Position numbers and translations under genes: made by a program. A stretch of 62,493 nt of DNA from Mycobacterium sp. Marseille-P9652 (GTDB taxonomy: Bacteria; Actinomycetota; Actinomycetes; Mycobacteriales; Mycobacteriaceae): assembly GCF_902652685.1 (NCBI RefSeq), contig NZ_CACRUY010000031.1, forward strand, positions 1 to 62,493, written 5' to 3'. The notes beneath the pieces are model-generated. The model worked only from the letters and a program-made list of their open reading frames with translations. It was not told where the DNA came from and did no database searches. How positions within the stretch are numbered: position 1 is the first letter of the stretch; each line of letters starts with the position of its first letter. This document shows positions 12,633 through 27,430 of the stretch, piece by piece.

Positions 12633-13127
12633 ATGGCACAGATAACCTTGCGTGGAAATCCGATCAACACCGTCGGCGAACTCCCGGCCGTCGGATCCAA
12701 GGCCCCGGCGTTCAACCTCACCGGCGGCGACCTGGGTCCGGTCAGCAGCGAGCAGTTCAGCGGTAAATCCGTGGTGCTCAACATCTTTCCCTCCGTCGAC
12801 ACACCCGTGTGTGCGACGAGTGTGCGCAAGTTCAACGAGCGCGTCGCCGGCGGCGGGGCGCCCGTCGTGTGCGTCTCGAAAGACCTCCCGTTCGCCTTCT
12901 CGCGGTTCTGCGGCGCCGAGGGCATCGAGAACGTGAAGACCGCATCGGCGTTCCGGGACAGCTTCGGCGAGGACTACGGCGTCACCATCGCCGACGGCCC
13001 GATGGCGGGGCTGCTGGCGCGGGCCATCGTGGTCGTCGGACCCGACGGCAACGTCACCTACACGGAGTTGGTCCCCGAGATCGGCCAGGAGCCGGACTAC
13101 GACGCGGCGCTCGCGGCCGTCGGCTGA
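12633..13127 (+). CDS. tpx: Thiol peroxidase (atypical 2-Cys peroxiredoxin)
   Basis: Peroxiredoxin of 164 aa that reduces hydroperoxides using thioredoxin-type electron donors. The peroxidatic Cys60 lies in SVDTPVC and the resolving Cys93 in FSRFCGAEG. Both numbers match the classical Tpx family. Length is full. ATG 12633 starts MAQITLRGN, as in mycobacterial Tpx. It is divergent from the GATase-AraC regulator, which matches the M. tuberculosis arrangement Rv1931c-Rv1932 (from memory). Confidence 0.97.
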   Translation: MAQITLRGNPINTVGELPAVGSKAPAFNLTGGDLGPVSSEQFSGKSVVLNIFPSVDTPVCATSVRKFNERVAGGGAPVVCVSKDLPFAFSRFCGAEGIENVKTASAFRDSFGEDYGVTIADGPMAGLLARAIVVVGPDGNVTYTELVPEIGQEPDYDAALAAVG

Positions 13128-13139
13128 TCCCGGTGCCGG

Positions 13140-13538
13140 TCACCGGCGCGGGTCGACCATGTTGCGGAAGCCCTCCGCCGGGTAGACCGCGGCGCCGAGC
13201 GTCCTGACGCGCTCGGCCAGCGCCCGGTCGGAGGTCACCACGCGCAGCCGCTCGGGCCGCGCGTCGGCCTGCACCAGGCGGACGATCTCGTCGTCCGCCG
13301 AATTCGCGGCGGCCCTGGGTGCGTGCGCGATCGCGACCGCCGAAACTCCGATGGGCACCCTCGGGGGCCGCTCGAGGACCACCGTGACGTCGGCGCCCTC
13401 GGCGGACGCCCAGCGGTCCAGCTTCTCGACCAGGGCGAGCACCGCGGCGTCGCGATCCCTCCACCAGCCGTCGGGGCGGCTGCCGATCACGTTCATGGCG
13501 TCGACGATCCACCTGCAGGACCCCTGCGCCACAGTCAC
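13140..13538 (-). CDS. NYN-domain (PIN-like) putative RNase
   Basis: Small 132-aa protein with an NYN/YacP-like fold. It opens with WIVDAMNVIGS (conserved Asp and Asn), has an internal acidic ADDEIVRLV segment and a late VVTSDRALAERV motif. These acidic residues would bind a metal in a PIN-type nuclease site. The GTG at 13538 overlaps the TGA of the upstream membrane-protein gene (GTGA), so the two are translationally coupled. RNA substrate unknown. Confidence 0.8.
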   Translation of the reverse strand: MTVAQGSCRWIVDAMNVIGSRPDGWWRDRDAAVLALVEKLDRWASAEGADVTVVLERPPRVPIGVSAVAIAHAPRAAANSADDEIVRLVQADARPERLRVVTSDRALAERVRTLGAAVYPAEGFRNMVDPRR

Positions 13539-13969
13539 TTCCCCAGCACCAGGACCAGGCTGACCACGACCAGCACGGTCAGCGCGAGCAGTTGCGGCCA
13601 CGGCCGCCACGGCGCGTCCTGGATCGCATAGGACATCTCCTTCAGCGGCGACGTCGGCGGCGGCGCGGCGCGCTCGGGGGCCACGGGCCGGTCGAAGCGG
13701 TGGAAGTACAACTGGATCAGCGTCGCACCGATCCACAATCCGCCCAGGAAGCTGACCGCCTCGACGCCGCGCCACAACAGCAGCCCGGCGACGGCCACGG
13801 TGAAGGCCATCAACACCAGGTCGGAGGTGGCGGTGGCCGACGGTTTGTCGCCGTACTGCTTGTCGAGCAGGGCGCGCCGGCTGCGGTACGGCAGCGCGAA
13901 GAACGCGAACTTGGTGACGATGTGCAAGCCGAGCACGACCACGACGACGGTGGCGACTGTGTTGAGCAT
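13535..13969 (-). CDS. Multi-pass membrane protein of unknown function
   Basis: Protein of 144 aa with about four hydrophobic segments: N-terminal (residues 2-25), two in the middle (about 50-90) and one at the C-terminus (about 122-142). A Pro/Ala-rich loop separates the third and fourth. No functional motif is recognised. It is the first gene of a two-gene unit with the NYN protein and is divergent from the flavoprotein gene at 14054 over 84 bases. Confidence 0.78.
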   Translation of the reverse strand: MLNTVATVVVVVLGLHIVTKFAFFALPYRSRRALLDKQYGDKPSATATSDLVLMAFTVAVAGLLLWRGVEAVSFLGGLWIGATLIQLYFHRFDRPVAPERAAPPPTSPLKEMSYAIQDAPWRPWPQLLALTVLVVVSLVLVLGK

Positions 13970-14053
13970 GAGACCTCGTCAATTCGTTCTCCGACCGGTT
14001 GGCACGGTCACCGATTACAGTTTCCTCGTCCACCGGATGATGGGAAAAGGCCA

Positions 14054-15238
14054 ATGACGTCGATCGCCGACACGGACAGCCGCGTTCTTTCGCTGGCGCG
14101 CGGGATGCGGGAGCTGGTGCGCGACCAGGCCGCCGAATCGGAGCGCAACCGCACCCTGACCCCGGCGATCGTCGACGAGATGTGGGCGAGCGGGCTCATG
14201 TCGTCGTTCAATCCCGTCGCCGCCGGCGGCGTCGAGCCGTCGTTCGCCGAAATGATCGAGACGTGGATCGAAATGGCTTGGCAGGACGGATCATTCGGCT
14301 GGATCGGCATCGCGAACCTGCCCTCGTCCTTCGCGGCCGCGGCCTACCTGCCCGACGAGGGGTTCGCCGAGGTGTTCACCGCCCACGACAACCGCGTCAC
14401 CCTCGGCGGCCAGTTCTTTCCCAACGGGCAGGGGGCCGCCGTCGAGGGCGGCTACCGCGTCACCGGGGCGTGGAACTTCGGCTCGGGGACCGGGCACTCG
14501 GAATACGTCGCGGCCGGGTTCCTGCCGATGGACGACGGCGAGATGCGCTGGATCAGCGAGGGCTTCCCCGAGATGCGCGTCGCGGTGATCCCCCGGGACC
14601 AGATCAGCTTCAACGACGGCTGGTACGTGCAGGGCCTCAAGGGCACCGGCTCGTACGACTACAGCGCGGCGGACGTCTTCGTGCCGGAATGCCGCACCTT
14701 CGAGCTGTTCGTCCGCCGGCCGCACCGCGGGACGTCGCCGGCCACCCGGATGGGCCTCATGCCCGTCACCGCCGCCGGTCACGCCTCGTGGGCGCTGGGG
14801 GTGGCGCTGAGCATGCTCGACGACGTGCAGGAGCTGGCGGCCACCAAGTTCCGGATGAGCGACATGGCGTCGCTGGCCAGCCGCCCCACCTTCCAGAAGG
14901 GGCTGGCCCACCATCGGGCGGCCTGGCGCGCCGCCCGCCTGCTCGTCCTCGACGCGTTCACCACCGCCGAGGCCGCCGTCGCCGCGGGTGAGGACCTGAC
15001 GCCGGCGCTGCGGGCCGACATGCGCGTCGCCGCCGTCTACGCCACCGACACCGCGCGGGCCTGCGCCGAATGGGCCCATCTCGTCGCCGGCACCAGCTCC
15101 ATCCGCGAGGGCACGCGCCTCGAGCGGGCCTTCCGCGACATCTACACCGGCACCCAACACGCGTTCATCAGCGAGAAGGTGGCCATCGACGTCGCGCAGA
15201 TCTGGCTGGGCATCATCGACGACCAACCGGGGCTGTAG
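14054..15238 (+). CDS. Acyl-CoA-dehydrogenase-fold flavoprotein (HsaA-like monooxygenase group)
   Basis: Protein of 394 aa in the acyl-CoA dehydrogenase superfamily, nearest by pattern to the flavin-dependent group-D hydroxylases (HsaA-like) rather than beta-oxidation enzymes. Evidence includes the central beta-domain YRVTGAWNFGSGTGHSEYV, the LKGTGSYDYSAADVFVPE segment and a C-terminal helical bundle with HLVAGTSSIREGTRLERAFRDI, typical of this subfamily. Group-D enzymes hydroxylate aromatics with reduced flavin from a separate reductase; no reductase gene is adjacent. ATG 14054 follows GGGAAAAGG. It lies 300 bp upstream of papA, so a functional link to lipid assembly is possible but not shown. 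Confidence 0.82.
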   Translation: MTSIADTDSRVLSLARGMRELVRDQAAESERNRTLTPAIVDEMWASGLMSSFNPVAAGGVEPSFAEMIETWIEMAWQDGSFGWIGIANLPSSFAAAAYLPDEGFAEVFTAHDNRVTLGGQFFPNGQGAAVEGGYRVTGAWNFGSGTGHSEYVAAGFLPMDDGEMRWISEGFPEMRVAVIPRDQISFNDGWYVQGLKGTGSYDYSAADVFVPECRTFELFVRRPHRGTSPATRMGLMPVTAAGHASWALGVALSMLDDVQELAATKFRMSDMASLASRPTFQKGLAHHRAAWRAARLLVLDAFTTAEAAVAAGEDLTPALRADMRVAAVYATDTARACAEWAHLVAGTSSIREGTRLERAFRDIYTGTQHAFISEKVAIDVAQIWLGIIDDQPGL

Positions 15239-15538
15239 GAGTAGCTCGCCCGGCTGGTCCTCCGGGCCGTCCCTCAAACACCCGGCCGACTTAAGGGCGC
15301 GCGGGGCGTGCACCTTCCGCGGCCACGCCGGAGTGACGGGGACCGCCCTCCGAGCACAATGCGCAAAACCGGGCAATCGTCGCTTATTTCGACTATCGCC
15401 CACAAGCGCGACTCCCGAGCCGCCGCGCCGTAATTTCGGTTGCAGCAGATCACCGGATCGACCGCACATCGCGGTGCCGGAGGCGAAATACCGCTCACGA
15501 CAATGTGACTCGCACGGACAGGACGGGGTTACAGGACA
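15239..15538. other. 300-bp intergenic region carrying conserved element copy A
   Basis: No convincing gene is present on either strand. It contains the element at 15352-15412 that recurs before mmpL. The first ~110 bases have nothing I can name. Confidence 0.6.
15352..15412 (+). promoter_or_regulatory. Conserved intergenic element, copy A (upstream of papA)
   Basis: 61 bases starting GAGCACAATGCGCAAAACCG match the element at 19831-19891 at 54 of 61 positions without gaps; weaker similarity runs about 25 bases further. TCGCT and AGCGC near positions 29-33 and 54-58 form a partial inverted repeat (perfect TCGCT/AGCGA in the other copy). It ends 126 bases before the papA ATG. A shared promoter or operator is the simplest reading. 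Confidence 0.65.
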
Positions 15539-17047
15539 ATGGTCGCACTGGGAAGCATCAACGGGTGGCAGCCTGGCGAGGGGCGGGTCGTCACGTGGCG
15601 CGCCTCGGCCCCCGCTCGCGCGGCTGCCCTCAACGCGCCGCACAGCGAGTTGGCGCCGAGTTACCAGCGGGCTCGGCACCTGCGGGCCGCCTACGACGCA
15701 GCGCGGCGGTCGGTGGAGCTGCCCCGGCTGATGGTCGTGGCCTGGGACATCCCGGGGGAGTGCGACATTCCCGCGATGACGGCGACGCTCAACGCCCACG
15801 TGCGCCGGCACGACGCCTACCACGACTGGTTTCAGCTGGAGGACGGCGTCATCGTCCGGCGCACGATCGAGGACCCCATGGACATCGACCTCGTGCCCAC
15901 CGAATCCGGCCACATGGACGCCGACCAGGTCCGCACGCACGCGCTGACCAACACCCGGGGGACCCTCGAGTGGGACTGCTTCACGTTCGGCATCGTCCAG
16001 CACCCCGACTACTTCACGTTCTACGCGAGCGTCGACCACCTGCACATCGACGGGATGTCGGCCGGCCTGATCTTCTTCGACGTCCACATGATGTACCAGC
16101 ACCTGTCGCGGACGGGCGCCGACGCGGTCGCGATCCCCCAGGTGGCGAGCTACCGCAGCTACGCCGCGCGCCAGCACGCCGGGCTCGCGGACCTGACCCT
16201 GTCCTCGCCGGAGGTCAAGGCCTGGGTCGACTTCGCACTCGACGCCGGGGGCGAGTGGCCGGCGTTCCCGCTGCCCGTCGGCGAAACCGGGGCCGGCAGC
16301 AAGGGCGCCTTCGTGACGGTCGACCTGCTGGACGCCGCCGACACCGAGTCGTTCGAGATCGCCTGCCACGCGGCCGGCGCCCGGTTCAGCGGGGGAGTGC
16401 TGGCCTGCGCCGCCTTCGCCGAGCACGAGTTCACCGGCGCAGCAACGTATCACGGGTTCACGCCGTATGACACGCGGACGCCGGGTGTCGACTCGATGAC
16501 CGTGGGCTGGTTCGCCAACCTGGTCCCGGTCAGCGTGCCGATCTGCACCGCCACCTTCGCCGAGGCGGCCCGGGCGGCTCAGCAGTCGTTCAATGCCGCC
16601 AAACCCCTTGCCGACGTGCCCGTTGAGCGCGCGCTCGAGCTGGCGGCCCCGCTCAACTTGGGCGTCGAGCCGCCCACCGCGCGCGCAATGATGGTGTCCT
16701 TCATGGACTTTCGCAAGATCCCCGCCTTCAGCCTGTTCGAGGAGACCAACTGGGGCACCTACGCCGACAACCTGTCACACGGCGGGATCAACCTGTGGAT
16801 CAACCGGCAGACGGACAAGACCACCGCGACGATCTCGTTCCCGGACAACGCGGAGGCGCGCAAGTCGGTGCACCGCTACCTGGCGGCCCTCACCCAGGCG
16901 TTCTCCTATGCCGTCAAGACCACCCCCGACTGGGTAAATGCCGTTGCGGACCACGCCAATTCGGCCCACGGCTTGCCCGTCATCAGCCTCGTGGCGATCG
17001 CGAGCGCGGCGAAGCCGGGCGAAGCGGGTCGCCACCAATTGACCTGA
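15539..17047 (+). CDS. PapA-family acyltransferase (trehalose-lipid type)
   Basis: Condensation-fold acyltransferase of 502 aa. The N-terminal INGWQPGEGRVVTW and SYQRARHLRAAYDAAR patterns match mycobacterial PapA1/PapA2/PapA3, which acylate trehalose in sulfolipid and polyacyltrehalose synthesis. The catalytic HxxxDG is HLHIDG near residue 180, within FYASVDHLHIDGMSAG. The second family motif region NWGTYADNLSHGG is present near residue 408. Length is close to PapA1. In known loci PapA lies beside a PKS and an MmpL; here the MmpL is present but no PKS is. Transcription probably starts in the 300-bp upstream region. The exact acceptor is an inference. Confidence 0.9.
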   Translation: MVALGSINGWQPGEGRVVTWRASAPARAAALNAPHSELAPSYQRARHLRAAYDAARRSVELPRLMVVAWDIPGECDIPAMTATLNAHVRRHDAYHDWFQLEDGVIVRRTIEDPMDIDLVPTESGHMDADQVRTHALTNTRGTLEWDCFTFGIVQHPDYFTFYASVDHLHIDGMSAGLIFFDVHMMYQHLSRTGADAVAIPQVASYRSYAARQHAGLADLTLSSPEVKAWVDFALDAGGEWPAFPLPVGETGAGSKGAFVTVDLLDAADTESFEIACHAAGARFSGGVLACAAFAEHEFTGAATYHGFTPYDTRTPGVDSMTVGWFANLVPVSVPICTATFAEAARAAQQSFNAAKPLADVPVERALELAAPLNLGVEPPTARAMMVSFMDFRKIPAFSLFEETNWGTYADNLSHGGINLWINRQTDKTTATISFPDNAEARKSVHRYLAALTQAFSYAVKTTPDWVNAVADHANSAHGLPVISLVAIASAAKPGEAGRHQLT

Positions 17048-17076
17048 GAATCCCCGTAACCGAAAGGATCGCCACC

Positions 17077-18441
17077 ATGAGCAACCTACTCGACCTGTTC
17101 GACGAGACCGTCTTCCGCTTCGAGCGGGCGGCCGGAGTCACGAGCATCGGCCAGTGCGTCTGGGTGTACAACCGCCCGGTCGACATCGCCGGCCTGCGCC
17201 GGTTCCACGGACATCTTCAGCGCGGACGGCTGGCGCGCCGCATCGAACGCTCGCCCCTGCCGTTCGGCCGCCACCGCTGGGTGGCCCCGCGCGACAACTC
17301 CCCACTGGAGATCGTCGCGACACCCCGGCCGCGCGCGGAGTTTCCCGCCTGGCTCGCCGAGCAGGCCGCGACGCCGTTGGACGCCGAGCGCGGCCCCGGG
17401 TTCCACCTTGCGGTGCTCCCCTTCACCGACGGGGGTGCCGGGGTGAGCCTGGTCGCCCTGCACTCACTGGCCGACGGGATGGCGGGCTGCCTGGCGGTGG
17501 TGGAAGCGGCCTGCGGCTACGACGCCACGATGGACTGGCCCGACGCGGGGTCACGCCGGCGGTGGCGGGCACTGCGCGAAGACACCCGCCAGACCGCACG
17601 CGACCTGCCCGCGACGGGCCGGGCTGTCGCCGCCGCGTTCACCGCGGCACGGCTCGCGCGGCGCACGCGGAAGGGCGACGGACGGCCCACCGCGGCACCG
17701 GCCGTGGCGGCCGCTCCGGACGAAGTGGTCGCGATCCCCACGGTGACGATCTTCCTCGACGCCGACGAGTGGGACGCCCGCGCGGAGGCCCTGGGCGGCA
17801 CCAGCAACGCGCTGCTCGCGGGGCTGGGCGCCCGGCTCGCCCAACGGGTGGGACGCGTCACCGCGGACGGCTCGGTCACCCTCTCGATCCCCGTCAGCGT
17901 GCGGACCGCCGACGACACCCGCGCCAACGCCGTCGCCAACGTCGACGTCACCGTCGACCCCGCGGCGGCGGCGACGGGCCTGCGGCAGGTCCGCGCTGCC
18001 ATCAAGGACGCGCTGACCCGTCGCCACGAGATTCCCGACGAGCGGTTGCCCCTGCTGCCCCTGGTACCGCTCCTGCCCAAGCGGCTCGCCCGGGCCTGCC
18101 TCGCGGTCGCCACCGGGCGCGCAACCGGCGTCGTCTCGTCCAACCTGGGCGCCGCCCCGGCGGCCGTCAACCGGCCGGACGGCACGGACGCCGACTACGT
18201 CTCCGTGACGTCGCTGTACCCGGGCATGACCCGGGCGACGATGGAACGCACCGGGGGTGTGCTGGCCCTGCTGTCGGCGAGGGTGAACCGACAGGTCTTC
18301 GTCTCGGTGCAGTCCTATCAGCCGGGCCGTCCCAACACGGAAGAGATTCTCACCGAGGCGCTTTGGGGCGCGCTCGACGACTTCTCTCTGCACGCGACTC
18401 ACGGCTGGCCGGCCCCCGCGGCGGCGCTCGCGGCCGGATGA
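17077..18441 (+). CDS. Condensation-fold acyltransferase-like protein, paralog 1
   Basis: Protein of 454 aa with the chloramphenicol-acetyltransferase/condensation fold. HxxxDG is seen as HSLADG near residue 130 and a late SSNLGAAP strand corresponds to the usual bridging region, as in WS/DGAT and PapA relatives. The N-terminus LLDLFDETVFRFERAAG and the block RRIERSPLPFGRHRW are nearly repeated in the next gene. It starts at ATG 17077 after GAAAGGA, 29 bases behind papA. The intact His and Asp suggest activity; its acyl donor and acceptor are unknown. It may act in series with PapA on one lipid. Confidence 0.82.
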   Translation: MSNLLDLFDETVFRFERAAGVTSIGQCVWVYNRPVDIAGLRRFHGHLQRGRLARRIERSPLPFGRHRWVAPRDNSPLEIVATPRPRAEFPAWLAEQAATPLDAERGPGFHLAVLPFTDGGAGVSLVALHSLADGMAGCLAVVEAACGYDATMDWPDAGSRRRWRALREDTRQTARDLPATGRAVAAAFTAARLARRTRKGDGRPTAAPAVAAAPDEVVAIPTVTIFLDADEWDARAEALGGTSNALLAGLGARLAQRVGRVTADGSVTLSIPVSVRTADDTRANAVANVDVTVDPAAAATGLRQVRAAIKDALTRRHEIPDERLPLLPLVPLLPKRLARACLAVATGRATGVVSSNLGAAPAAVNRPDGTDADYVSVTSLYPGMTRATMERTGGVLALLSARVNRQVFVSVQSYQPGRPNTEEILTEALWGALDDFSLHATHGWPAPAAALAAG

Positions 18442-18464
18442 CACGGAAAGGAATCGAAAGAACA

Positions 18465-19805
18465 ATGGACACCACACTGGACCTGTTCGACCACACCTTC
18501 GCGAGCCTCGAGCGGGCGACCGGCGTCGTCGGACTCCTGCAGTGCATCTGGATCTACGACCGCGATGTCGACCTCGACGGCGTGCGGCGATTCCACCGGA
18601 ACCTTCGGCGCGGGCGGCTCTCCCGCCGGATCGAGCGCTCGGCCCTGCCCTTCGGCCGCCACCGCTGGATCGCGGCCAGCGGCCGGTCGACCCTCGAGGT
18701 CGTCGCGACACCCCGGTCGCGCGCAGGCCTCGACGAGTGGCTCGCCGAACAGGCCGCGACGCCCATCGATTTCGAACGCGGCCCCGAATGGCGCCTCGCG
18801 GTGCTGCCGTTCACCGAGGGCGGCGCGGGGATCAGCCTGGTGGTGCCGCATTGCCTCACCGACGGCATCGGGCTGTGCGAGGCCCTGGCCGACGCCGCCA
18901 CCGGCCGTCACGACCCCATCGCCTGGCCCGGCGCCGGATCGCGCCGGCCGTGGCAGGCGCTGCGCGAGGACGCCCGCCAAACCGCCCGAGACATCCCGCG
19001 CATCGCGCGCGCTTTCGTCGCTGCGGTGCGACGCGTGAGGGCGGGCGCGCAACCGGTCGCCCCACCAACCGCGCCGCCAAGCGGAACCGACCGGCCCATC
19101 AGCCTGCCCACGGCAACCGTCTTCGTCGACGCCGACGACTGGGACGCCCGCGCGAACGCCCTCGGGGGCACCAGCAACAGCCTGCTGGCCGGGGTCGCGG
19201 CGACGTTGGCGCAGCGCATCGGCCGCGTCGCCGCCGAAGGCTCGGTCACCGTGGCGATACCGGTCAACGAGCGCACGACCGGCGACACCCGCGCCAACGC
19301 GGTCGCCAATGTCGACATCGCAGCCGACCCCGCCACCGCGACGGCGGACCTGCGCGACATCCGTGCCGCGACCAAGCGCGCACTGACCGACCGCCGCCAG
19401 AACCCCGACACGCGGCGGGACTTGCTGCCCCTTGTCCCTCTGATGCCGCAGTGGCTGATCCGGCGAATCGCCGGCGTGGCCGCCGGCGGCCCCAGCACCG
19501 TCGTCGCATCCAACGTCGGCGTGATCGACCCGGCCGTCTCGCGGCCGGACGGCACCAAAGCCGACCACTTCGCCGTCAAGGCTCCCCACCCGGACGCGAC
19601 CACCGCCGCCATGAACCGGTTCGGCGGAATGCTGTCCCTGGCGTCGGGCCGGGCAAACGGCCAGGTGTTCGTCTCGGTCGTCGCCTATCAGCCGGGTCGG
19701 TGCACCACCGATATCGAACTGCGTCAAGCCTTTTCGGGCGCCCTGAGTGACTTCTCGCTGACCGCGACGGGCGACTGGCGTTGCCGCGAGCTCTGTGGCG
19801 CGTAG
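18465..19805 (+). CDS. Condensation-fold acyltransferase-like protein, paralog 2
   Basis: Protein of 446 aa, clearly a tandem duplicate of the preceding gene: the same LDLFDHTFASLERATG start, RRIERSALPFGRHRW block and WDARANALGGTSN segment, in the same order. The catalytic HxxxDG is HCLTDG near residue 130 and is intact. The ATG at 18465 is preceded by GGAAAGGAA. The gap from paralog 1 is 23 bases, so the three acyltransferase-like genes form one operon. Divergence in the middle linker (Pro/Ala-rich in both) suggests the copies are not recent. Function unknown beyond the fold. Confidence 0.82.
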   Translation: MDTTLDLFDHTFASLERATGVVGLLQCIWIYDRDVDLDGVRRFHRNLRRGRLSRRIERSALPFGRHRWIAASGRSTLEVVATPRSRAGLDEWLAEQAATPIDFERGPEWRLAVLPFTEGGAGISLVVPHCLTDGIGLCEALADAATGRHDPIAWPGAGSRRPWQALREDARQTARDIPRIARAFVAAVRRVRAGAQPVAPPTAPPSGTDRPISLPTATVFVDADDWDARANALGGTSNSLLAGVAATLAQRIGRVAAEGSVTVAIPVNERTTGDTRANAVANVDIAADPATATADLRDIRAATKRALTDRRQNPDTRRDLLPLVPLMPQWLIRRIAGVAAGGPSTVVASNVGVIDPAVSRPDGTKADHFAVKAPHPDATTAAMNRFGGMLSLASGRANGQVFVSVVAYQPGRCTTDIELRQAFSGALSDFSLTATGDWRCRELCGA

Positions 19806-19830
19806 GGCTGACCGCCCGCCGAAACACCAA

Positions 19831-19891
19831 GAGCACAATGCGCAAAACCGGTGAATCGTCGCTAATCCCGACTATCGCCGACAAGCGAGAC
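19831..19891 (+). promoter_or_regulatory. Conserved intergenic element, copy B (upstream of mmpL)
   Basis: Second copy of the 61-bp element found before papA, 54/61 identical. Here TCGCT and AGCGA flank a 20-base centre as a perfect short inverted repeat. It ends 79 bases before the mmpL ATG. Its presence implies that mmpL has its own promoter under the same control as papA. Confidence 0.65.
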
Positions 19892-19970
19892 AGGGCTGCG
19901 CGCGGCGCCATAAGTTCCGAGTAACCGAAGCGAAACCCTTCGCGGCCCGACGCTTTTGAAAGGTCCTCCC

Positions 19971-22900
19971 ATGTCTGAGAAGTCCGCCGTCAATACCGGG
20001 GCCGGTGCGTTCTGGATGCTCGGTCGCGTCGTCGTGCGCGCGCCCTGGCTCGTGATCGCCGCCTGGGCGGCCGTATTGGCCGCGCTGGCCCTGACCTTCG
20101 CGCCGCTGACGAAGGTGGTCGAAGGGCAGACCGTGCAGCCGCTGCCGCCCAAGGCAATGGCCGCGGCCGAGCAGATGGCGAAGGACTTCGGCGAATCCGC
20201 CCAGAACGTCCTGATCGTCGTGCTCGGCGACAACCGGCGTCTGCAGCCGGCGGACGACGCCACCTACCGGAAGCTGGCCGACACGTTGCGCGCCCAGTCC
20301 AATGAGGTGGCCGGCGTCCAGGACGTCGCGACCACCCCCGCGCTGCGTGCGCTGATGGTCAGCCCCGACAACAAGGCGGTTTACCTTGCGGTGGTGCTGC
20401 GCGCGCCCGCCGGCTCCCCGGAGTCGTCACGGGCCTACCAGCGGATCAACGACATCGTCAAGCGCTCCACCGCGGGCACGGGGCTCACCGCGGACGTGAC
20501 GGGACAGGCCGCCATGGTGGGCGACATGTCGATTCTGACCGCCCGCGACATGCACGTCACCGAGATCGTCACCGCCCTGTTCGTCCTCGGCATCCTGCTG
20601 GTGATCTACCGGCGACCGGCGACGGTGGTGCTGCCGTTGATCACCATCGGGGTTTCGGTGGTATCGGCACAGGGCGTGGTGTCGGGGCTGACCCAGGTCG
20701 GGCTGGGCGTGTCCGCGCTGACGATCGCGCTGATGACCGCCATGATCTTCGGCGCCGGCACCGACTACGCCGTCTTCCTCATCAGCCGCTACCACGAGTA
20801 CATCCGATCCGGCACCGACTCGGACTTGGCCGTGCAGCGGGCACTGAGCTCCATCGGTGAGGTGATCGCCGGGTCGGCGGCCACCGTCGCCGTCACGTTC
20901 TGCGGCATGGTCTTCACCCGGCTGCCCGCGTTCACGAGCATCGGCCCCGCCCTTGCCGTTTCGATCGGGGTCGCGTTCCTGGCCGCCGTCACGCTGCTGC
21001 CGGCCGTCCTGGTGCTCGCCGGCAGGCGCGGATGGGTAATGCCGCGGCCCCCGTTGACCGGTCGCCTGTGGCAGCGCTCCGCCGTTCACCTGGTCCGCCG
21101 GCCGAAAGCCCATCTGCTGGCGAGTCTTTCGGTGTTGGTGGCGCTGGCCGGCTGCGCGGCCTTCCTGCGGCCCACGTTCAACGACCGCCTGCAATTGCCG
21201 CAGTCGGCGCCGAGCAACGTCGGATTCTCGACGATGCAGAGCCACTTCTCGACCAGCGCGCTGCTCCCGCAGTACATCTATGTCCGCTCGCCGCACGACC
21301 TGCGGACCTCGCGGGCCCTGGCCGACCTCGACCAGATGGCGCAACGGGTCTCGCAGTTGCCCAATATCGCGGCGGTGCGCGGCATCACGCGGCCGGACGG
21401 TCAGCCGCTCGATCAGACCAAGCTCAGCACCCAGGCGGGGGCGGTCGGCGACAAGCTGCAGGACGCCTCGACGCAGATCGGCGACCGGGCCACCGATCTC
21501 GATGCGCTGACCAAGGGCGCCGACCAATTGGCATCGAGCCTGGCCGAGGTGCGCGACCAGGTCCGCGCCGCCAGCGGGCCCATGACACGGGCGGCCGCGA
21601 CCGTCGCGCAGGCCCGCCAGCAGCTCGCCGGCGCGGCCACGCAACTGGACAACCTGCGCGCCCTCGCGAACGCTGCCGCCCCACTGCTGACCGCCGTCGT
21701 CCCCGACGCGCAGCCGGCGATGCCGGGCCTGCAGTCAGCCGTCCAGAGTCTCGGCGGCCAGTTGGCCGCGGCGGCCGGCGCTCTGCGGAGTGCCGGTGGC
21801 AGCGCGGCCGGCGTCTCCCAGGGGATCGCGCGGCTGCAGGAGACCGCCGACGCGCTTGCCGACGGCAGCCGGCGGCTGGCCGAGGGCGTGCGGACGCTGG
21901 TCGACCAGACCAAGAAGATGGGCCTGGGCATGAACCAGGCGGCCGACGTCCTGCTGTCGATGAAGCGCGACGCTTCACAGCAATCCATGGCGGGCATGTA
22001 CATCCCGCCGCAGGTGCTCTCCTCGGGCGAGTTCAAGAAGGCCGCGAAGATGTTCATCTCGCCCGACGGCCACTCGGCGCGCTACCTGGTGGAAACGAAG
22101 TTCGACCCGTTCAGCACCGCGGCGATGGATCAGGTTCCGGCCATCCTCGGCACGGCCCGCGGTGCGCAGCCGAACACCTCGCTGTCCGACGCGTCGATCT
22201 CGATGGTCGGCACGACTCCGATGTACAGCGCGATCCGCAGCTACTACGACGACGACGTGCGCCTGATCGTCGTGATGACGCTGGTGGTCGTCTTCTTCAT
22301 TCTCGTGCTGCTGCTGCGGGCGATCGTCGCCCCGATGTATCTCATTGCCTCCGTGGTCATCTCGTTTCTGTCGGCGGTGGGGGTGGGGGTGCTCTTCTTC
22401 CAGTTCCTGCTGCACCAGCCGATCTACTGGAACGTGCAGGCGACGGCGTTCATCGTGCTGGTCGCCGTAGGGGCGGATTACAACCTGTTGCTGATCACGC
22501 GAATCCGGGAGGAGTCACGCGCCGGCGTGCGCTCGGGCATCATCCGCGCGGTCCGCTCCACCGGCGGTGTCATCACCTCGGCCGGCATCATCTTCGCCGC
22601 CTCGATGTCGGGCCTGCTGTTCGGCAGCCTCTCGACCATGGTCCAGACCGGATTCATCATCGGCATGGGCATCTTGATCGACACATTCGTTGTTCGCACC
22701 ATCACCGTGCCGGCCCTGGCGGCGATGATCGGCCAGGCGAACTGGTGGCCTTCCAGGCCGAAGAAAGTCGTCCACGCCCGCACGCCCGCCGCCGAGAGTC
22801 GTGTCCCCACTGACCCCACCGTGGCCGCGTGCGTCCACGGCGACATGTCACACACGCTGGTGGCAGCCAGCATTCGCCGTTCGGCGGCTCACCGCCGGCG

Positions 22901-23003
22901 GACACTCGCTCGGGGCGACGCGTCGGGTAGCCGTCGCAGGTCCCGCGCCGGCCGCGTCGGGCCCGCGCACCGGCGGCGGCTGGCCGGCCAAGTCGCGCGC
23001 TGA
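19971..23003 (+). CDS. MmpL-family RND lipid exporter
   Basis: Inner-membrane transporter of 1010 aa. Two repeats each have a transmembrane helix, a large periplasmic loop and five further helices. The proton-relay Asp-Tyr pairs are in GAGTDYAVFLISRYHE (TM4) and VGADYNLLLITRIREE (TM10). The second loop (residues about 480-680) has long Ala/Gln/Leu heptad-like stretches, a coiled coil as in lipid-exporting MmpLs such as MmpL8 and MmpL10. The tail after the last helix is strongly basic, with many Arg. ATG 19971 follows AAAGGTCC; a TTG 15 bases upstream is less likely. With PapA and the two condensation-fold proteins it probably exports the acylated lipid. Converges with the response regulator. 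Confidence 0.95.
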   Translation: MSEKSAVNTGAGAFWMLGRVVVRAPWLVIAAWAAVLAALALTFAPLTKVVEGQTVQPLPPKAMAAAEQMAKDFGESAQNVLIVVLGDNRRLQPADDATYRKLADTLRAQSNEVAGVQDVATTPALRALMVSPDNKAVYLAVVLRAPAGSPESSRAYQRINDIVKRSTAGTGLTADVTGQAAMVGDMSILTARDMHVTEIVTALFVLGILLVIYRRPATVVLPLITIGVSVVSAQGVVSGLTQVGLGVSALTIALMTAMIFGAGTDYAVFLISRYHEYIRSGTDSDLAVQRALSSIGEVIAGSAATVAVTFCGMVFTRLPAFTSIGPALAVSIGVAFLAAVTLLPAVLVLAGRRGWVMPRPPLTGRLWQRSAVHLVRRPKAHLLASLSVLVALAGCAAFLRPTFNDRLQLPQSAPSNVGFSTMQSHFSTSALLPQYIYVRSPHDLRTSRALADLDQMAQRVSQLPNIAAVRGITRPDGQPLDQTKLSTQAGAVGDKLQDASTQIGDRATDLDALTKGADQLASSLAEVRDQVRAASGPMTRAAATVAQARQQLAGAATQLDNLRALANAAAPLLTAVVPDAQPAMPGLQSAVQSLGGQLAAAAGALRSAGGSAAGVSQGIARLQETADALADGSRRLAEGVRTLVDQTKKMGLGMNQAADVLLSMKRDASQQSMAGMYIPPQVLSSGEFKKAAKMFISPDGHSARYLVETKFDPFSTAAMDQVPAILGTARGAQPNTSLSDASISMVGTTPMYSAIRSYYDDDVRLIVVMTLVVVFFILVLLLRAIVAPMYLIASVVISFLSAVGVGVLFFQFLLHQPIYWNVQATAFIVLVAVGADYNLLLITRIREESRAGVRSGIIRAVRSTGGVITSAGIIFAASMSGLLFGSLSTMVQTGFIIGMGILIDTFVVRTITVPALAAMIGQANWWPSRPKKVVHARTPAAESRVPTDPTVAACVHGDMSHTLVAASIRRSAAHRRRTLARGDASGSRRRSRAGRVGPAHRRRLAGQVAR

Positions 23004-23011
23004 GCGCGGCC

Positions 23012-23707
23012 TCAGCGCGGCGGGCGGGGTCGCCGCGCCGGGGCCGCGGCGAACTCCTGCTCGGGCCGGCCCGTCGTCCCGTAGCGCAAGCCGACGGTCA
23101 CCTCCGCGGTCGTGGCAAGCGCCGCCAGGTACCGCTGGGCGGTCGCCCGCGAGATGCCGATGGCGGCCGAAACCTCCGCCGCCGACATCGGCGTGCTCGA
23201 CGTGCGCAACGCCTGCAGCACAAGCTGTTTGGTGGACGAGGCCGCGATGGTGGCCGGCTGCGGGGGAGCGACCCTGGGACGCAGCGCGTCCAGGGCCGCG
23301 TCCACGTCGGCGGCCCCCAGGTTCGGGCCGCCGATGATCTTGCGGTAGCGCGCGTAACCGGCCAGCCGGGCGGCAAGATCCGTGGTGGCAAACGGCTTGA
23401 CGAGGTAGCTGAGCGCGCCGGCGGACATGGCGGCGCGGATGGTGGCCGCCTCGGTCGCCGCCGTCAACGCCATGCTGTCGCAATGCAATTCGCGGATGAA
23501 GTCGATCCCGGAGCCGTCGGGAAGATAGACGTCGACCAGCGCCAGATCGAGAGCGGGTTCCTCGTGAACGGCCTTGCGCGCGGCCTCGAGGGTGTTCGCC
23601 GTGGCGGTCACGGTGAAGCCGGGCAGGGTATTGACCACCTCGGCGTGTAGATTTGCGACGCGGAAATCGTCGTCGACCACAAGCACCGTCAGATCTGCGT
23701 CGCCCAT
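23012..23707 (-). CDS. Response regulator, CitB/DcuR type
   Basis: Response regulator of 231 aa. The receiver domain (residues about 6-125) has the acidic VVDDD pair, the phosphoacceptor Asp in LALVDVYLPDGSG, a Thr in LTAATE and a Lys in YLVKPF. A C-terminal helix-turn-helix (about 160-210), SAAEVSAAIGISRATAQRYLAAL, is of the CitB/DcuR type. The gene start overlaps the kinase 3' end by 19 bases, so the pair is translated together. In other bacteria such systems sense C4-dicarboxylates or citrate; the target here is unknown. The mmpL gene ends 8 bases away on the other strand. Confidence 0.93.
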   Translation of the reverse strand: MGDADLTVLVVDDDFRVANLHAEVVNTLPGFTVTATANTLEAARKAVHEEPALDLALVDVYLPDGSGIDFIRELHCDSMALTAATEAATIRAAMSAGALSYLVKPFATTDLAARLAGYARYRKIIGGPNLGAADVDAALDALRPRVAPPQPATIAASSTKQLVLQALRTSSTPMSAAEVSAAIGISRATAQRYLAALATTAEVTVGLRYGTTGRPEQEFAAAPARRPRPPR

Positions 23708-25374
23708 TGTGCCTCCTCAACCATCACTCCCGGCAGCCGCGCGATGAACTCCGCGCCCCGCAGTCGCAGGGCCGGGTTACCCGAACTGGACAGCCACAGG
23801 TCGCCACCGACGGCGCGACTGATCTGGCGCGACAACGCAAGTCCGATGCCGCGGCCGCCGGGGATGCCGGAGTCGGGCTTTGTGCTCTCGCCCTCGGTGA
23901 AGAGGTGCTCCACGAACTCGGGTGCGACGCCGTCGCCGCTGTCGGCCACCGTGACGTGCAGGGTCGTACCGTCCTGCAGCAGTTCGATCTCCACTTCCTT
24001 GGTCGCGTTGGCGCTGGTCCGCGCCGCGTCAATCGCGTTATCCAGCAGGTTCCCGATCACGGTGGTGACGTCGACCGGAAGTACGAGACTGCCTGCCACC
24101 CAGGTGTTTTCACCTATCGTCAGCGTCACCCCGGCCTCGCGCGCGGCAGCCGCTTTGGCCGCCAGGAACGCCTGCAGGTAGGCATCACGGATGGACTCGA
24201 TGCCAGCTACCGCCGACCCGAGGGGACCGGACCCGAGGAGCTCCTCCAGATAGCGCAGCCCCTCGTCGACGTGACCGCCGTGCAGCAACCCGGTGAGCAG
24301 GTGCAGCCGGTTGGCGAACTCGTGGCGCTGCGCGCGCAGGACGGTGCTCATCACCTGCACGGCGTCGAGTTGCCGGGTCAGCGATTCCACGTCGGTCCGG
24401 TCCCGCACCACCAAGACGGTTCCCAGCTCGCGTCCCTCGCGCGTCACCGGCCGCGCCGAAACCACGACGATGCGCTCACCCACGGTGGCCAACGTGGGAG
24501 TCGCGTCGGCCGCCTTGAATACGTCGATCAGGCGTGGAGTCAACCCGATCTCGTCCACGGGGCGGCCCGGTTCGCTGCTGATGTCCAGCAGCCGGCATGC
24601 CTCGTCATTGATGAAGGTGGTCTTCCACGACGCGTCGGCCGCGAGCACGCCTTCACCGATGCCCTGAAGGACGGCGGCCTGACTGCGCAGCAGCTCAACG
24701 ATTTCGGTCGGCCGCAGGCCCAGCGTCAGCCCCCGCCAACGTCGGAAGAGCAGCACCGATCCCGTCAGCCCGCCCAGCAGAAGCGCACCGGCCATCCCGG
24801 CGAGCACCCGCAGGTTCTTGGAGAACTGGTCGTCGAAAGACTTGGTGGACAGGCCGACGACGACCACGCCTAACACCCGATCGGTATTTGGCTCGAGGAC
24901 AGGCACTTTGGCGACTATCGCCCGCCCGAAGACCGTGGAGTCGTGGGTGACTTCCTCGTGCCCGGCGGTCGCCTGGCTGATATCGGCGAGGATGGGGCGA
25001 CCCAACCGTTCACGGTCGGGATCGGCCAGCCGGATGCCGTGGCTGTTGGCGACGACGACGAACCGCACGTGCGTGCGCTGCTCGACGCGCGACGCCACAC
25101 TTTCGATCGGCCCGGTCGCGAGTTCGTCGACCAGCCCCGAGCTCGCGGTCAACGTGGGGTCGTTGTAGCGGTCGATGTTGTTGATCACCGTCGGGGAAGA
25201 GGCCACCACGCGGGCGATGTCCAGCGCATGGACGTGAAACTGGCTGTCCAGACGCTGGCGGTTGAACACGGCGAACAACCCGAACGCGATGATCAGGGTC
25301 AGGGTCACGACGACGAGCTGCAGCAGCAACACCTGCGTGGCGAGCCGCAGGTCGATGCGACCCCTGACGGCCAT
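23689..25374 (-). CDS. Sensor histidine kinase, DcuS/CitA type
   Basis: Membrane kinase of 561 aa. TM1 is at residues about 17-37, followed by an extracytoplasmic single-Cache-like sensor (about 40-175), TM2 (about 183-203), a PAS domain (about 220-320), a Spo0B-type phosphoacceptor helix with the His in QRHEFANRLHLL (near 347) and an HATPase domain with DNAIDA (N box), DSGDGV and GGRGIGLAL. This order is that of DcuS/CitA kinases, which bind small carboxylates outside the cell. Its 3' end overlaps the response regulator. No dicarboxylate transporter gene is next to it. Confidence 0.94.
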   Translation of the reverse strand: MAVRGRIDLRLATQVLLLQLVVVTLTLIIAFGLFAVFNRQRLDSQFHVHALDIARVVASSPTVINNIDRYNDPTLTASSGLVDELATGPIESVASRVEQRTHVRFVVVANSHGIRLADPDRERLGRPILADISQATAGHEEVTHDSTVFGRAIVAKVPVLEPNTDRVLGVVVVGLSTKSFDDQFSKNLRVLAGMAGALLLGGLTGSVLLFRRWRGLTLGLRPTEIVELLRSQAAVLQGIGEGVLAADASWKTTFINDEACRLLDISSEPGRPVDEIGLTPRLIDVFKAADATPTLATVGERIVVVSARPVTREGRELGTVLVVRDRTDVESLTRQLDAVQVMSTVLRAQRHEFANRLHLLTGLLHGGHVDEGLRYLEELLGSGPLGSAVAGIESIRDAYLQAFLAAKAAAAREAGVTLTIGENTWVAGSLVLPVDVTTVIGNLLDNAIDAARTSANATKEVEIELLQDGTTLHVTVADSGDGVAPEFVEHLFTEGESTKPDSGIPGGRGIGLALSRQISRAVGGDLWLSSSGNPALRLRGAEFIARLPGVMVEEAQWATQI

Positions 25375-25435
25375 GCCGAGACCCTACCGCGCCGCCGAGC
25401 AAAAAGCGGAGAAGTCGCTCCGACCGCTGGCCGCG

Positions 25436-25825
25436 CTACGGGCGGGGCGTGGGGGTCGCCGGCGTGCTCGGCTGCGGACTCGGGACGGCGCCCGGCCCCA
25501 TCATGCCCGGGCCCATCATGCCCGGGCCCATCATCCCGCCCGGCATCATCGGGCCGGCCGGCATCCCATCGCCGCCGTTCATCATGGGGCAGGTGCCCGC
25601 GCGCCCGCCGGCGCCCATGTGACCGCCGAATCGCCAGCCGCCGTAGCCGTGCGCCGACGCACCGAGGAAGAAACCGGCGAAGAACACCACCGCCACCACG
25701 AATACGACCCCGGCGACGATGCCGACCACGGCGGCCACCTGCAGCAGCCGACTGGGCGTCTCGTCGTAGCGCGGGGGCGCCGTCTCGGCCACGGGGCGAA
25801 CCGGGACATCCTCAGGCTGCGTCAT
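25436..25825 (-). CDS. Met/Gly-rich single-pass membrane protein
   Basis: Protein of 129 aa: a short acidic N-terminus, one transmembrane helix (residues about 28-54), then a Gly/His-containing segment and a tail with repeated GMMGPGMMGPG, ending in a Pro/Thr-rich stretch. Methionine-rich repeats with His and a Cys-Pro-Met-Met site could bind copper, but no known copper-protein domain is seen. The repeats are encoded by 15-bp tandem units. It lies 61 bases upstream of the kinase gene's start on the same strand, with the kinase downstream-facing away, so it is probably a separate transcript. Confidence 0.7.
   Translation of the reverse strand: MTQPEDVPVRPVAETAPPRYDETPSRLLQVAAVVGIVAGVVFVVAVVFFAGFFLGASAHGYGGWRFGGHMGAGGRAGTCPMMNGGDGMPAGPMMPGGMMGPGMMGPGMMGPGAVPSPQPSTPATPTPRP
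25499..25543. repeat. 15-bp tandem repeat inside the Met-rich gene
   Basis: Three head-to-tail units of CATCATGCCCGGGCC (25499-25513, 25514-25528, and an imperfect 25529-25543) encode the Met-Met-Gly-Pro-Gly repeats. A multiple-of-three unit keeps the frame, so copy number could vary between strains. Confidence 0.8.
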
Positions 25826-25919
25826 GTTCCGAATGATGGCGCACCGACGTCCCCGACAGTAGGGACCATCGGCCCTAATCGGTTCGGGGGCGCGGATTAC
25901 GTGCGGCCGCGAGGTCGCC

Positions 25920-25925
25920 TACCAT
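25920..25925 (+). promoter_or_regulatory. Candidate -10 box (TACCAT), leaderless spacing
   Basis: TACCAT lies exactly 12 to 7 bases before ATG 25932 of the epimerase gene; no ribosome binding site is visible. Confidence 0.5.
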
Positions 25926-25931
25926 CAGCGC

Positions 25932-26834
25932 ATGCGCGGATCCAAGATCCTGATCACCGGCCCCACCGGGCAGATCGCCACTCCCATCGCGATGGCCCTC
26001 GCGGCCGACAACGAGGTCTGGGGCATCGCACGCTTCAGCAACCCCGCCGCACGCGAAACCCTCGAGAAAGCCGGGGTGCGGTGCCAGACCGTCAACCTCG
26101 CAGCGGGTGACTTCTCCGGGCTCCCAGACGATTTCGAGTACGTGCTGAACCTGGCCGTCGCCAAGAGCGGCCACTGGGACAAGGACCTGGCCGCCAACGC
26201 GGAGTCGGTCGGCCTGCTCATGGCCCACTGCCGCGGCGCAAAGGCGTTCCTGCACTGCTCGTCCGCCGCCGTCTACGACCCGCCCGACGACGAACCCCGA
26301 ACCGAGGGCGCCGCGCTGGGCGACAACCACAAGTTTCTGTTCCCCACCTACTCGATCTCCAAGATCGCCGGCGAGGTCGTCGCCCGCTCGACCGCCCGAA
26401 TCCTCAACCTGCCGACCACGATCGCCCGACTGAACGTCCCCTACGGCAACAACGGGGGCTGGCCGTATTACCACATGGAGATGATGCTGGCCGGCATCGC
26501 GATCCCCGTCCCGCCCGGCGAACCGGCCCGCTACAACCCCATCCACGAGGACGACATCATCGCGTCCATCCCGAAGCTCCTCGCGGTCGCGTCGGTCCCC
26601 GCCACCACCGTCAACTGGTGCGGCGAGCAGACCGTCAGCATCCAGGAATGGTCGCATTACCTCGGGTCGCTCATCGGCAAGGAGCCGATGTTCGAGGAGA
26701 GCGAGCATGCGCTTCGGGGCAATCCCACCGATACCACCCTGATGGGTGAGCTCATCGGGGGGACGACCGTCGACTGGCGCGACGGGCTACGGCGGATGGC
26801 GGCCAGGTTCCACCCGGAGCTGGTCGAGGCTTAA
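25932..26834 (+). CDS. NAD-dependent epimerase/dehydratase family protein
   Basis: Extended-SDR protein of 300 aa. The N-terminal cofactor motif is ITGPTGQIATPIA (TGxxGxxG variant), an acidic region follows the second strand, LHCSSAAVYDPP contains the catalytic Ser and YSISKIAGE the Tyr-x-x-x-Lys pair. The C-terminal substrate domain has YGNNGGWPYYHMEMM and YNPIHEDDI, as in sugar-nucleotide epimerases and related reductases. Substrate unknown. It converges with the TetR gene, whose stop is 20 bases away. Confidence 0.88.
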   Translation: MRGSKILITGPTGQIATPIAMALAADNEVWGIARFSNPAARETLEKAGVRCQTVNLAAGDFSGLPDDFEYVLNLAVAKSGHWDKDLAANAESVGLLMAHCRGAKAFLHCSSAAVYDPPDDEPRTEGAALGDNHKFLFPTYSISKIAGEVVARSTARILNLPTTIARLNVPYGNNGGWPYYHMEMMLAGIAIPVPPGEPARYNPIHEDDIIASIPKLLAVASVPATTVNWCGEQTVSIQEWSHYLGSLIGKEPMFEESEHALRGNPTDTTLMGELIGGTTVDWRDGLRRMAARFHPELVEA

Positions 26835-26854
26835 GTCGTTGCGCCGCAGAGCTT

Positions 26855-27430
26855 TCAGTCCCGCTCGGCGGGCTTGACGATGCGGGCCGCCGCTTCGACG
26901 GCGGCCGCGCGGCGGCTGGCGAGGGCCTCGGGATCGCTTGTCGCCAACGCGGGGTCGGGCCAGTGGGCCCACCCCAGGGCGACCGCGAACAGCAGCACCA
27001 GCAGGTGCTTGGGCTCCCAACGCGGGTCGACCTGGCCGGCGGCCTGTGCCTGTTCCAGCGCGGCGATGGCCAGCTCGGGCGGATGCTCGCCGTCGAACTC
27101 CGGCTTGTCGAGCGGAAAGCCTTCCAGCTGTGCCCAGGTGATCATCCGCAGGTGTTCGGGCCGGCGCTGAGCAAGGTCGAAGAGGTCGCCGACGAACTCG
27201 GGCACCGCGTCGGGACGCATCTCCACGGCGCGGAAGAATTCCGCCCCGTCGGCGGCGACGACGTCACGGAAGAGCGTCTCCTTGTCGCCGAAGTGCGCGT
27301 ACAGGCGTTCCTTGCTGGCACTGGCGGCGCGGGCGATGCGGTCGATCCGCGCCCCCGCGAGGCCGTACTGCGCGAACTCCGCGCGGGCGGCGGCGAGGAT
27401 CTCACCGCGAAGTTCGGTCTTGGTTCTCAC
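26855..27430 (-). CDS. TetR-family transcriptional regulator
   Basis: Repressor of 191 aa. The N-terminal helix-turn-helix spans residues about 10-50, ending in the family pattern SKERLYAHFGDKETLF, followed by an all-helical ligand domain. GTG 27430 is preferred over the in-frame codon at 27484 because it begins with RTKTELRGEIL, as family members do, and because TATGCT lies exactly 12 to 7 bases upstream. The inverted repeat at 27444-27465, between it and the divergent methyltransferase, is the probable operator, giving autoregulation and control of the methyltransferase-acyltransferase pair. Inducer unknown. Confidence 0.9.
   Translation of the reverse strand: MRTKTELRGEILAAARAEFAQYGLAGARIDRIARAASASKERLYAHFGDKETLFRDVVAADGAEFFRAVEMRPDAVPEFVGDLFDLAQRRPEHLRMITWAQLEGFPLDKPEFDGEHPPELAIAALEQAQAAGQVDPRWEPKHLLVLLFAVALGWAHWPDPALATSDPEALASRRAAAVEAAARIVKPAERD

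Follow-up and report, generated by a model that had tools for sequence, protein, structure and literature searches.

A promoter-like element upstream of papA and mmpL genes in Mycobacterium sp. Marseille-P9652 and its probable link to a DcuR/CitB-type two-component system

Results and discussion

A sequence element of about 61 bp occurs twice in a 62,493-nucleotide stretch of the Mycobacterium sp. Marseille-P9652 genome (assembly GCF_902652685.1, contig NZ_CACRUY010000031.1, positions 1 to 62,493; this whole stretch is referred to as the window), once ahead of an operon of PapA-like acyltransferase genes and once ahead of an MmpL-family transporter gene. The element very probably represents an activator-dependent promoter, through which a response regulator (RR) of the DcuR/CitB type would switch on the papA operon, mmpL and a distant hydrolase gene together. 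The regulator is most likely provided by the DcuSR/CitAB-type two-component system, consisting of a sensor histidine kinase (HK) and an RR, which is encoded beside mmpL. The features concerned are the following, with the basis of each assignment in brackets.

15352–15412, plus strand: element copy 1, putative operator for the DcuR-like RR, upstream of and overlapping the papA-operon -35 (alignment, profile, conservation in the genus)
15408–15413, plus strand: -35-like hexamer GCGACT of the predicted papA-operon promoter (letters and consensus position)
15431–15436, plus strand: -10-like hexamer TAATTT of the predicted papA-operon promoter, 17 bp from the -35-like hexamer (letters and consensus)
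15539–17047, plus strand: PapA-like acyltransferase a, a condensation-domain protein, first gene of the papA operon (Pfam Condensation PF00668, E 6e-15)
17077–18441, plus strand: PapA-like protein b (no Pfam match; about 75% DNA identity to c across two 300-base stretches)
18465–19805, plus strand: PapA-like protein c (distant WS/DGAT acyltransferase match, below cut-off)
19831–19891, plus strand: element copy 2, the same putative operator, ahead of mmpL (alignment, profile)
19887–19892, plus strand: -35-like hexamer GAGACA of the predicted mmpL promoter (letters)
19911–19916, plus strand: -10-like hexamer TAAGTT of the predicted mmpL promoter, 18 bp from the -35-like hexamer (letters)
19971–23003, plus strand: MmpL-family RND transporter (Pfam MMPL, E 4.5e-161)
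23012–23707, minus strand: DcuR/CitB-type RR, proposed activator of the element, with recognition helix SRATAQRYLA at residues 186–195 (Pfam receiver and IclR-type helix-turn-helix at 163–198; NCBIfam DcuR E 4.5e-31, below cut-off)
23689–25374, minus strand: DcuS/CitA-type sensor HK, partner of the RR, with sCache_3_2 sensor, SPOB_a and HATPase domains (Pfam, NCBIfam, DcuS alignment)
25397–25415, plus strand: very weak match immediately ahead of the kinase gene, possibly the vestige of an ancestral element (nhmmer E 0.96)

Two copies of the element in the window

The two copies are identical at 54 of 61 positions without gaps, and both lie in non-coding gaps, the first between the stop at 15238 and the ATG at 15539, the second between the stop at 19805 and the ATG at 19971. 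An annotation made earlier from the letters of this stretch (the original prediction) had described the two copies in this way, and realignment and the stop and start positions bear it out. The weaker similarity it had reported past the 61 bp is also real, and it is there that the promoter-like -35 and -10 hexamers are found. Its proposal of an internal TCGCT/AGCGA pair as a protein-binding site did not hold: the pair is present in copy 2 only, and was rejected as operator core since it is missing from copy 1 (which reads AGCGC) and from the consensus of the relatives (AAGCGcGaC).

No further site in the window, on either strand, scores 33/61 or more against copy 1, and a blastn search of the source genome with copy 1 as a 111-base query returned only copy 1 itself and copy 2 (E 6e-16). 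When the 5.7-Mb genome was scanned with a sequence-only profile of the element, built from 71 sequences including both window copies, three strong sites were found. These are the two copies (E 6e-24 and 8e-22) and a third site (E 7e-12; G000:C8:64596-64681) ahead of an alpha/beta-hydrolase gene, after which there is only noise, from E 0.2 upward. All three stand upstream of a gene. The profile scan and the comparison within the window led us to reject chance similarity of the two copies. A dispersed repeat, which the original prediction had named as a possible objection, is not what the genome contains, given three strong copies in 5.7 Mb. More generally, the idea of a dispersed repeat, mobile element or structured RNA with no regulatory role draws on the several copies per genome seen in some species (11 at E ≤ 1e-3 in genome G066), but is largely refuted by this low number in the source genome, by the patterned targets and by an Rfam scan of positions 13000–27000, which gave 0 matches at the gathering threshold and on which the structured-RNA reading was rejected.

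Putative operator and promoter

The consensus of the element, derived from 207 distinct sequences (127 after clustering at 85%, with rows of more than 12 gaps excluded), is TGAGCACAATGCGCAaAAcc-n3-aaATCGncgctt-n3-gCGncTagtGCgCACAAGCGcGaCac ... TAncTT. Positions A8, A9, G11, A54 and A55 are among those that are invariant in the 71 profile sequences. In the 152 elements with readable anchors, the distance from the GNGACA-like hexamer to TAnnnT is 17 bp in 106, 18 bp in 39 and 19 bp in one, with no such hexamer in the remaining 6, and promoter geometry (GNGACA-like -35, 17–18 bp, TAnnnT) is seen in 145. The 3' part of the element thus reads as a promoter, which would place the conserved boxes where an activator, rather than a repressor, is expected to bind; a weak -35 that is immediately preceded by conserved boxes is the arrangement of activator-dependent promoters. 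The half-site of the putative operator may be GCACAA-like, since the palindrome TTGTGCGCACAA lies just upstream of the -35 place in 12 of 18 Nocardia elements, and the distal box again contains GCACAA.

A strong constitutive promoter, duplicated along with the lipid genes and lacking a dedicated regulator, would also have a TAnnnT -10 at fixed spacing, as is found in 146 of the 152 readable copies. We consider it very improbable, as the conserved stretch, about 60 bp long, extends from upstream across the -35 and exceeds the needs of a sigma-A promoter, the -35 itself is poor, and the element stands before unrelated genes while accompanying one regulator.

Linkage to the response regulator

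The original prediction had put the adjacent RR forward as the first candidate and had proposed a search for the element across mycobacteria. The co-occurrence of DcuR-like RR and element across genera supports this candidate. Within the genus, the profile detects the element at E ≤ 1e-3 in 117 of 396 genomes; blastn with an 81-base query gave a match at E ≤ 0.1 in 99 of the 396, many of the weakest matches being short and possibly due to chance. The blastn survey scored the two best candidates per genome and the profile survey ten, with stricter filters, so the copy numbers are lower bounds. Close RRs, chosen by hand at an identity of at least 59% (those of G386, G223, G333, G206, G380, G204 and G070, at 45–53%, were excluded), are present in 85 of the 396 genomes, and 81 of these 85 have the element at E ≤ 1e-3. 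At this threshold both are found in 81 genomes, the element only in 36, the RR only in 4 and neither in 275 (Fisher p 3e-50, uncorrected for kinship), the corresponding numbers at E ≤ 1e-6 being 80, 19, 5 and 292.

As a test independent of the element, named genomes were searched by RR similarity alone, and the best 80 of 116 relatives were kept. The element is present at E ≤ 1e-3 in 66 of these 80 loci, with 99 sites in total, and reversed sequences gave 0 sites at E ≤ 1. Nineteen of the 26 Nocardia loci have it, in every case as a single site located 24–159 bp upstream of the matched kinase part and facing away from it; autoregulation is therefore unsupported. Eight Nocardia loci and two titled Mycobacteroides loci were read out; the gene faced by the element encodes the ATPase or permease of an ABC transporter in 7 of the former and in both of the latter (Pfam matches one permease and one ATPase). 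The longest frame behind the element is not coding-like in loci L268 and L256. Small-genome mycobacteria (L121–L124, L126) have the order element-papA-HK-RR, and large-genome relatives often have element-MFS transporter-HK-RR, with divergent pairs of elements. Relatives of the HK-RR pair adjoin ABC, MFS or APC transporters.

In a sample of the family, the element was found in 25 of 301 genomes, belonging to 5 of 31 genera. Outside the genus, 18 of the 19 genomes with the element have the RR on the same contig, 1.7–3.2 kb away (distances obtained by subtraction); in G601, outside the genus, the site is weak and the locus contains no RR.

Co-variation of site and recognition helix

Residues 186–195 of the window RR (SRATAQRYLA, numbered by hand on the alignment) lie at the end of the helix-turn-helix. 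The motif SRATAQR[YH]L is found in all 33 RRs chosen for having the element, namely the one in the window, 17 mycobacterial, 4 Mycobacteroides-type (two of them titled Mycobacterium sp.) and 11 from Nocardia. Nineteen of 20 weaker RR relatives (39–53% identity) have another helix, and none of the 19 has a site at E ≤ 0.05. The only weaker relative with SRATAQRYL, in locus L290, does have a site (E 0.0024); it is divergent from the kinase gene and lies some 300 bp ahead of the matched part. Twenty further family loci were examined, including 7 of the 10 genomes of genus g28; one locus lacks an RR. Of the 11 RRs carrying SRATAQRYL, 10 are accompanied by a site at E ≤ 0.05 and 5 by one at E ≤ 1e-3. 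In g28 the sites are partial matches of 29–34 bases and are consistently located at the same position ahead of the kinase. Where the helix of a family RR differs, a related GCGCAAAA-type sequence occupies the place of the site. Site and helix therefore appear to vary in step, as expected if the RR recognized the element directly.

A related but different GCGCAAAA-type sequence occurs at a consistent place in L285–L289 and L314–L322, whose weaker RR relatives have the helix SPATARRYL or similar. A sister motif of this type may be definable.

Element and regulator apart

Several observations weigh against control of the element by this RR. The RR is present without the element in four genomes of the genus, whose completeness is 55, 63, 83 and 97%, the most complete being G253. 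Conversely, 36 of the 117 genomes with the element lack the RR at the cut-off used, 19 of them having an element at E ≤ 1e-6. Among the best 80 RR loci, 14 have no element at E ≤ 1e-3 (L225, L233, L237, L244, L246, L248, L254, L260, L263, L264, L265, L272, L278 and L281, some of them short and some with weaker matches), including second RR copies of M. szulgai and M. angelicum. An RR at E ≤ 1e-50 occurs in 88 of the 301 genomes of the family sample. The element is absent at E ≤ 1e-3 from 65 of them, whose RRs are mostly 46–53% identical, but those of 10 g28 genomes reach 61–64%. Of the 8 family RRs whose helices differ, 3 are still accompanied by a weak match at E ≤ 0.05 (best 0.004) and none by a site at E ≤ 1e-3, and G559 combines the helix SRATAQRYL with a site at chance level (E 0.57). 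Finally, the hydrolase elements in genomes lacking the RR are preserved just as well as in other genomes and are usually better conserved than their flank: between L061 and L063, for instance, the element is 98% identical, the flank 88% and fourfold sites 90%, although element and flank are equally similar between L127 and L063. The simple reading in which the element is read by this RR alone is weakened by these well-kept hydrolase elements. Another regulator may therefore read the element, or the RR losses may be recent. The second RR copies of M. szulgai (L246) and M. angelicum (L248), at about 68%, have no element nearby.

Thirteen of the 19 element-only genomes with a site at E ≤ 1e-6 were viewed at locus level (G003, G008, G045, G146, G219, G233, G240, G249, G269, G271, G283, G327 and G378; G167, G244, G257, G278, G290 and G389 were left out). 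No CitB-type RR was found in G233, G240, G269, G271, G283, G327, G219, G249 and G378, where the best matches are about 35% identical and concern the receiver part, and a 52-residue stretch of the RR, 58% identical, is left in G146. Of 7 assessable genomes lacking the RR, 4 have a broken or missing hydrolase gene after the element (G233, G240, G249 and G269, the frameshift in the last lying in a draft assembly, where it could be an error), vs 0 of 10 genomes possessing the RR (Fisher 0.015). This comparison is based on 19 hand-picked loci, from which L065 and L170 were excluded as cut by contig or locus ends. The decay agrees with target genes losing their value after loss of the system, which does not explain the persistence of the element. 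In some of the genomes the element is truncated where papA is gone (L046, L057) or survives only as a degenerate piece (L056).

The elements of L046, L056 and L057 keep only about their first 40 bases, papA being gone or degenerate. In L133 (G219) and L129 (G045), the element and the epimerase gene are kept, with no kinase, regulator or papA match between them, which suggests scars left by deletion at the locus. In G219 the PE gene following the element is truncated.

The element could instead be bound by a more widely kept regulator, the two-component system being merely one of its targets or a neighbour. The persistence of the hydrolase element where no CitB-type RR was found fits such a regulator, as do the elements preceding operons which themselves include the HK-RR pair (papA-HK-RR and MFS-HK-RR). 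We nevertheless regard it as unlikely, since the element faces away from the HK-RR genes in Nocardia, Mycobacteroides and several mycobacteria and yet stays adjacent to them, and the helix of this particular RR co-varies with the site. In addition, the HK-RR pair is the recurring neighbour of the element in the maps drawn, in which not every neighbour was tested, and no other gene recurs through the contexts.

Proposed mechanism and comparison with known systems

Control by the RR encoded beside mmpL would operate as follows. The membrane kinase, of the DcuS/CitA type, would sense a ligand and phosphorylate the RR, which would then bind the element and recruit RNA polymerase. The approximately 61 bp would hold several GCACAA-like half-sites for the RR, the last of which would abut the poor -35, with the -10 (TAAnTT) 17–18 bp further on. 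The papA operon, mmpL and the distant alpha/beta-hydrolase gene would in this way be switched on jointly. The ancestral site probably lay between the kinase-regulator genes and a transporter gene, and would have been copied, or have evolved again, before the lipid genes in mycobacteria with the PapA/MmpL locus. In the window, the HK-RR pair is flanked by mmpL and an epimerase gene, with no carboxylate transporter adjoining. A strong element directly upstream of the window kinase gene was looked for and not found, the best match being the possible vestige (E 0.96); in many related loci a degenerate copy of the element, with E from 0.4 to 1e-3, occupies the same place.

The sCache_3_2, SPOB_a and HATPase_c domains of the window kinase and the Response_reg and HTH_IclR domains of the RR are all above the Pfam cut-offs. 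The best NCBIfam models for the pair are those of DcuS-DcuR and DpiB-DpiA of Escherichia coli (DcuR E 4.5e-31; DcuS/MalK E 7e-84), although the pair scores under the curated cut-offs, as holds for both DcuR and DpiA as relatives of the RR. The sensor and PAS domains of the kinase align with the solved domains of DcuS, from which it differs in that the H of RYSHP and the R of ALRV are replaced by D and V. Aligned Nocardia and transporter-linked kinases keep RxxHP and VRAKVP, at positions whose DcuS counterparts we take to be ligand contacts; the window kinase reads RLADP and IVAKVP. Its nearest relatives, the kinases of M. paraense (L207), M. colombiense (L208) and M. palustre (L213), likewise have D, S or A in place of the H and IVAKVP or similar in place of VRAKVP. 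The PE-linked kinases of M. szulgai, M. asiaticum and M. gordonae keep the H and not the R, and the papA-linked kinases of L121, L122, L126 and L234 (M. barrassiae) keep both positions.

The PrpD, PrpF and MFS genes beside elements elsewhere suggest a di- or tricarboxylate as the ancestral signal. It is possible, though we put it forward only tentatively, that this nutrient-sensing system was captured as a surface-lipid switch and its sensor retuned in the slow-growing lineage of the window, an acylated envelope lipid then being made and exported in response to an extracellular small molecule other than the ancestral carboxylate. This is based on the absence of a transporter beside the kinase, a kinase-side site which is at best a vestige, the strong papA and mmpL sites, and the replacement of two pocket positions. 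As papA-linked kinases elsewhere keep both positions, there is no general tie between lipid control and retuning, which slightly lowered our estimate.

In Mycobacterium tuberculosis, PhoP, WhiB3 and EspR control the sulfolipid and polyacyltrehalose/diacyltrehalose (PAT/DAT) loci (papA, mmpL8, mmpL10). The coordinated control of papA- and mmpL-type genes is similar to the one proposed here, but these regulators belong to another family. The repeat unit of PhoP is TCACAG, which was not seen in either 61-bp copy when these were read by eye. A literature search of limited coverage, by title and start of abstract, gave nothing on this element or on CitB-type control of papA or mmpL.

A further close parallel is CitA-CitB of Corynebacterium glutamicum. 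According to a 2012 review (PMC3353115), CitAB is encoded divergently from the transporter gene citH, and CitB binds the promoter regions of citH and tctCBA and is needed for transport-gene expression; according to the same review, the exact DNA motif of CitB had not been identified at that time. The divergent layout of an HK and a CitB-type RR with a transporter gene described there is also found in the mycobacterial, Mycobacteroides and Nocardia relatives considered here. In contrast to that description, a motif is proposed here, and the targets in the window are PapA-like and MmpL genes instead of citrate transporters. Within CitB-type two-component control, it is these targets and the readable operator that would be new.

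Other genes behind the elements

The targets of the element vary by lineage and comprise transporters, PrpD/PrpF, hydrolases, PapA and MmpL. One copy precedes each of several papA units in L040, L048, L055 and L059. PE proteins (Pfam PE) are also encoded behind elements, often with papA next after PE, and a PucR-type regulator gene behind a PE gene is among the targets. Further elements stand before hydrolase/LCM-methyltransferase loci, MFS transporters and an amino-acid permease. In large-genome relatives, MmgE/PrpD, PrpF, MFS, ATP-grasp, PhyH and M13 peptidase genes are linked to elements by position only. The shared regulator or promoter type coordinating lipid acylation and export, as originally predicted, thus stands as far as a shared operator and promoter with a candidate regulator is concerned, but the predicted regulon is broader than lipids, since it extends to transporters and PrpD/PrpF.

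MmgE/PrpD-like, PrpF-like and ATP-grasp (D-Ala-D-Ala-ligase-like) genes adjoin the elements of L183, L195, L196, L189 and L200, which suggests a tricarboxylate-related regulon. In L193, L194 and L197, also from large-genome relatives, elements are found on both sides of an MFS transporter gene resembling the transporter of L072.

Neighbouring features of the window

The name PapA was taken over from the original prediction, the family match being firm for the first gene of the operon and weak or absent for the other two. The operon is preceded by an HsaA-like acyl-CoA dehydrogenase/monooxygenase gene (13592–15238), many homologues of which align only from about residue 140–155, so that translation may really begin near 14045. 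Upstream of the kinase gene, at about 25495–25560, there is a short tandem repeat of CCCATCATGCCCGGG units, which probably belongs to a minus-strand reading frame as a low-complexity stretch rich in Met, Pro and Gly.

Significance

The two-component system would supply a candidate regulator, and the element a readable DNA code, for how PapA/MmpL envelope-lipid genes are expressed in many nontuberculous mycobacteria. They also lead us to propose a binding motif for an actinobacterial CitB-type regulator, and would tie the citrate/dicarboxylate sensor family to cell-surface lipids.

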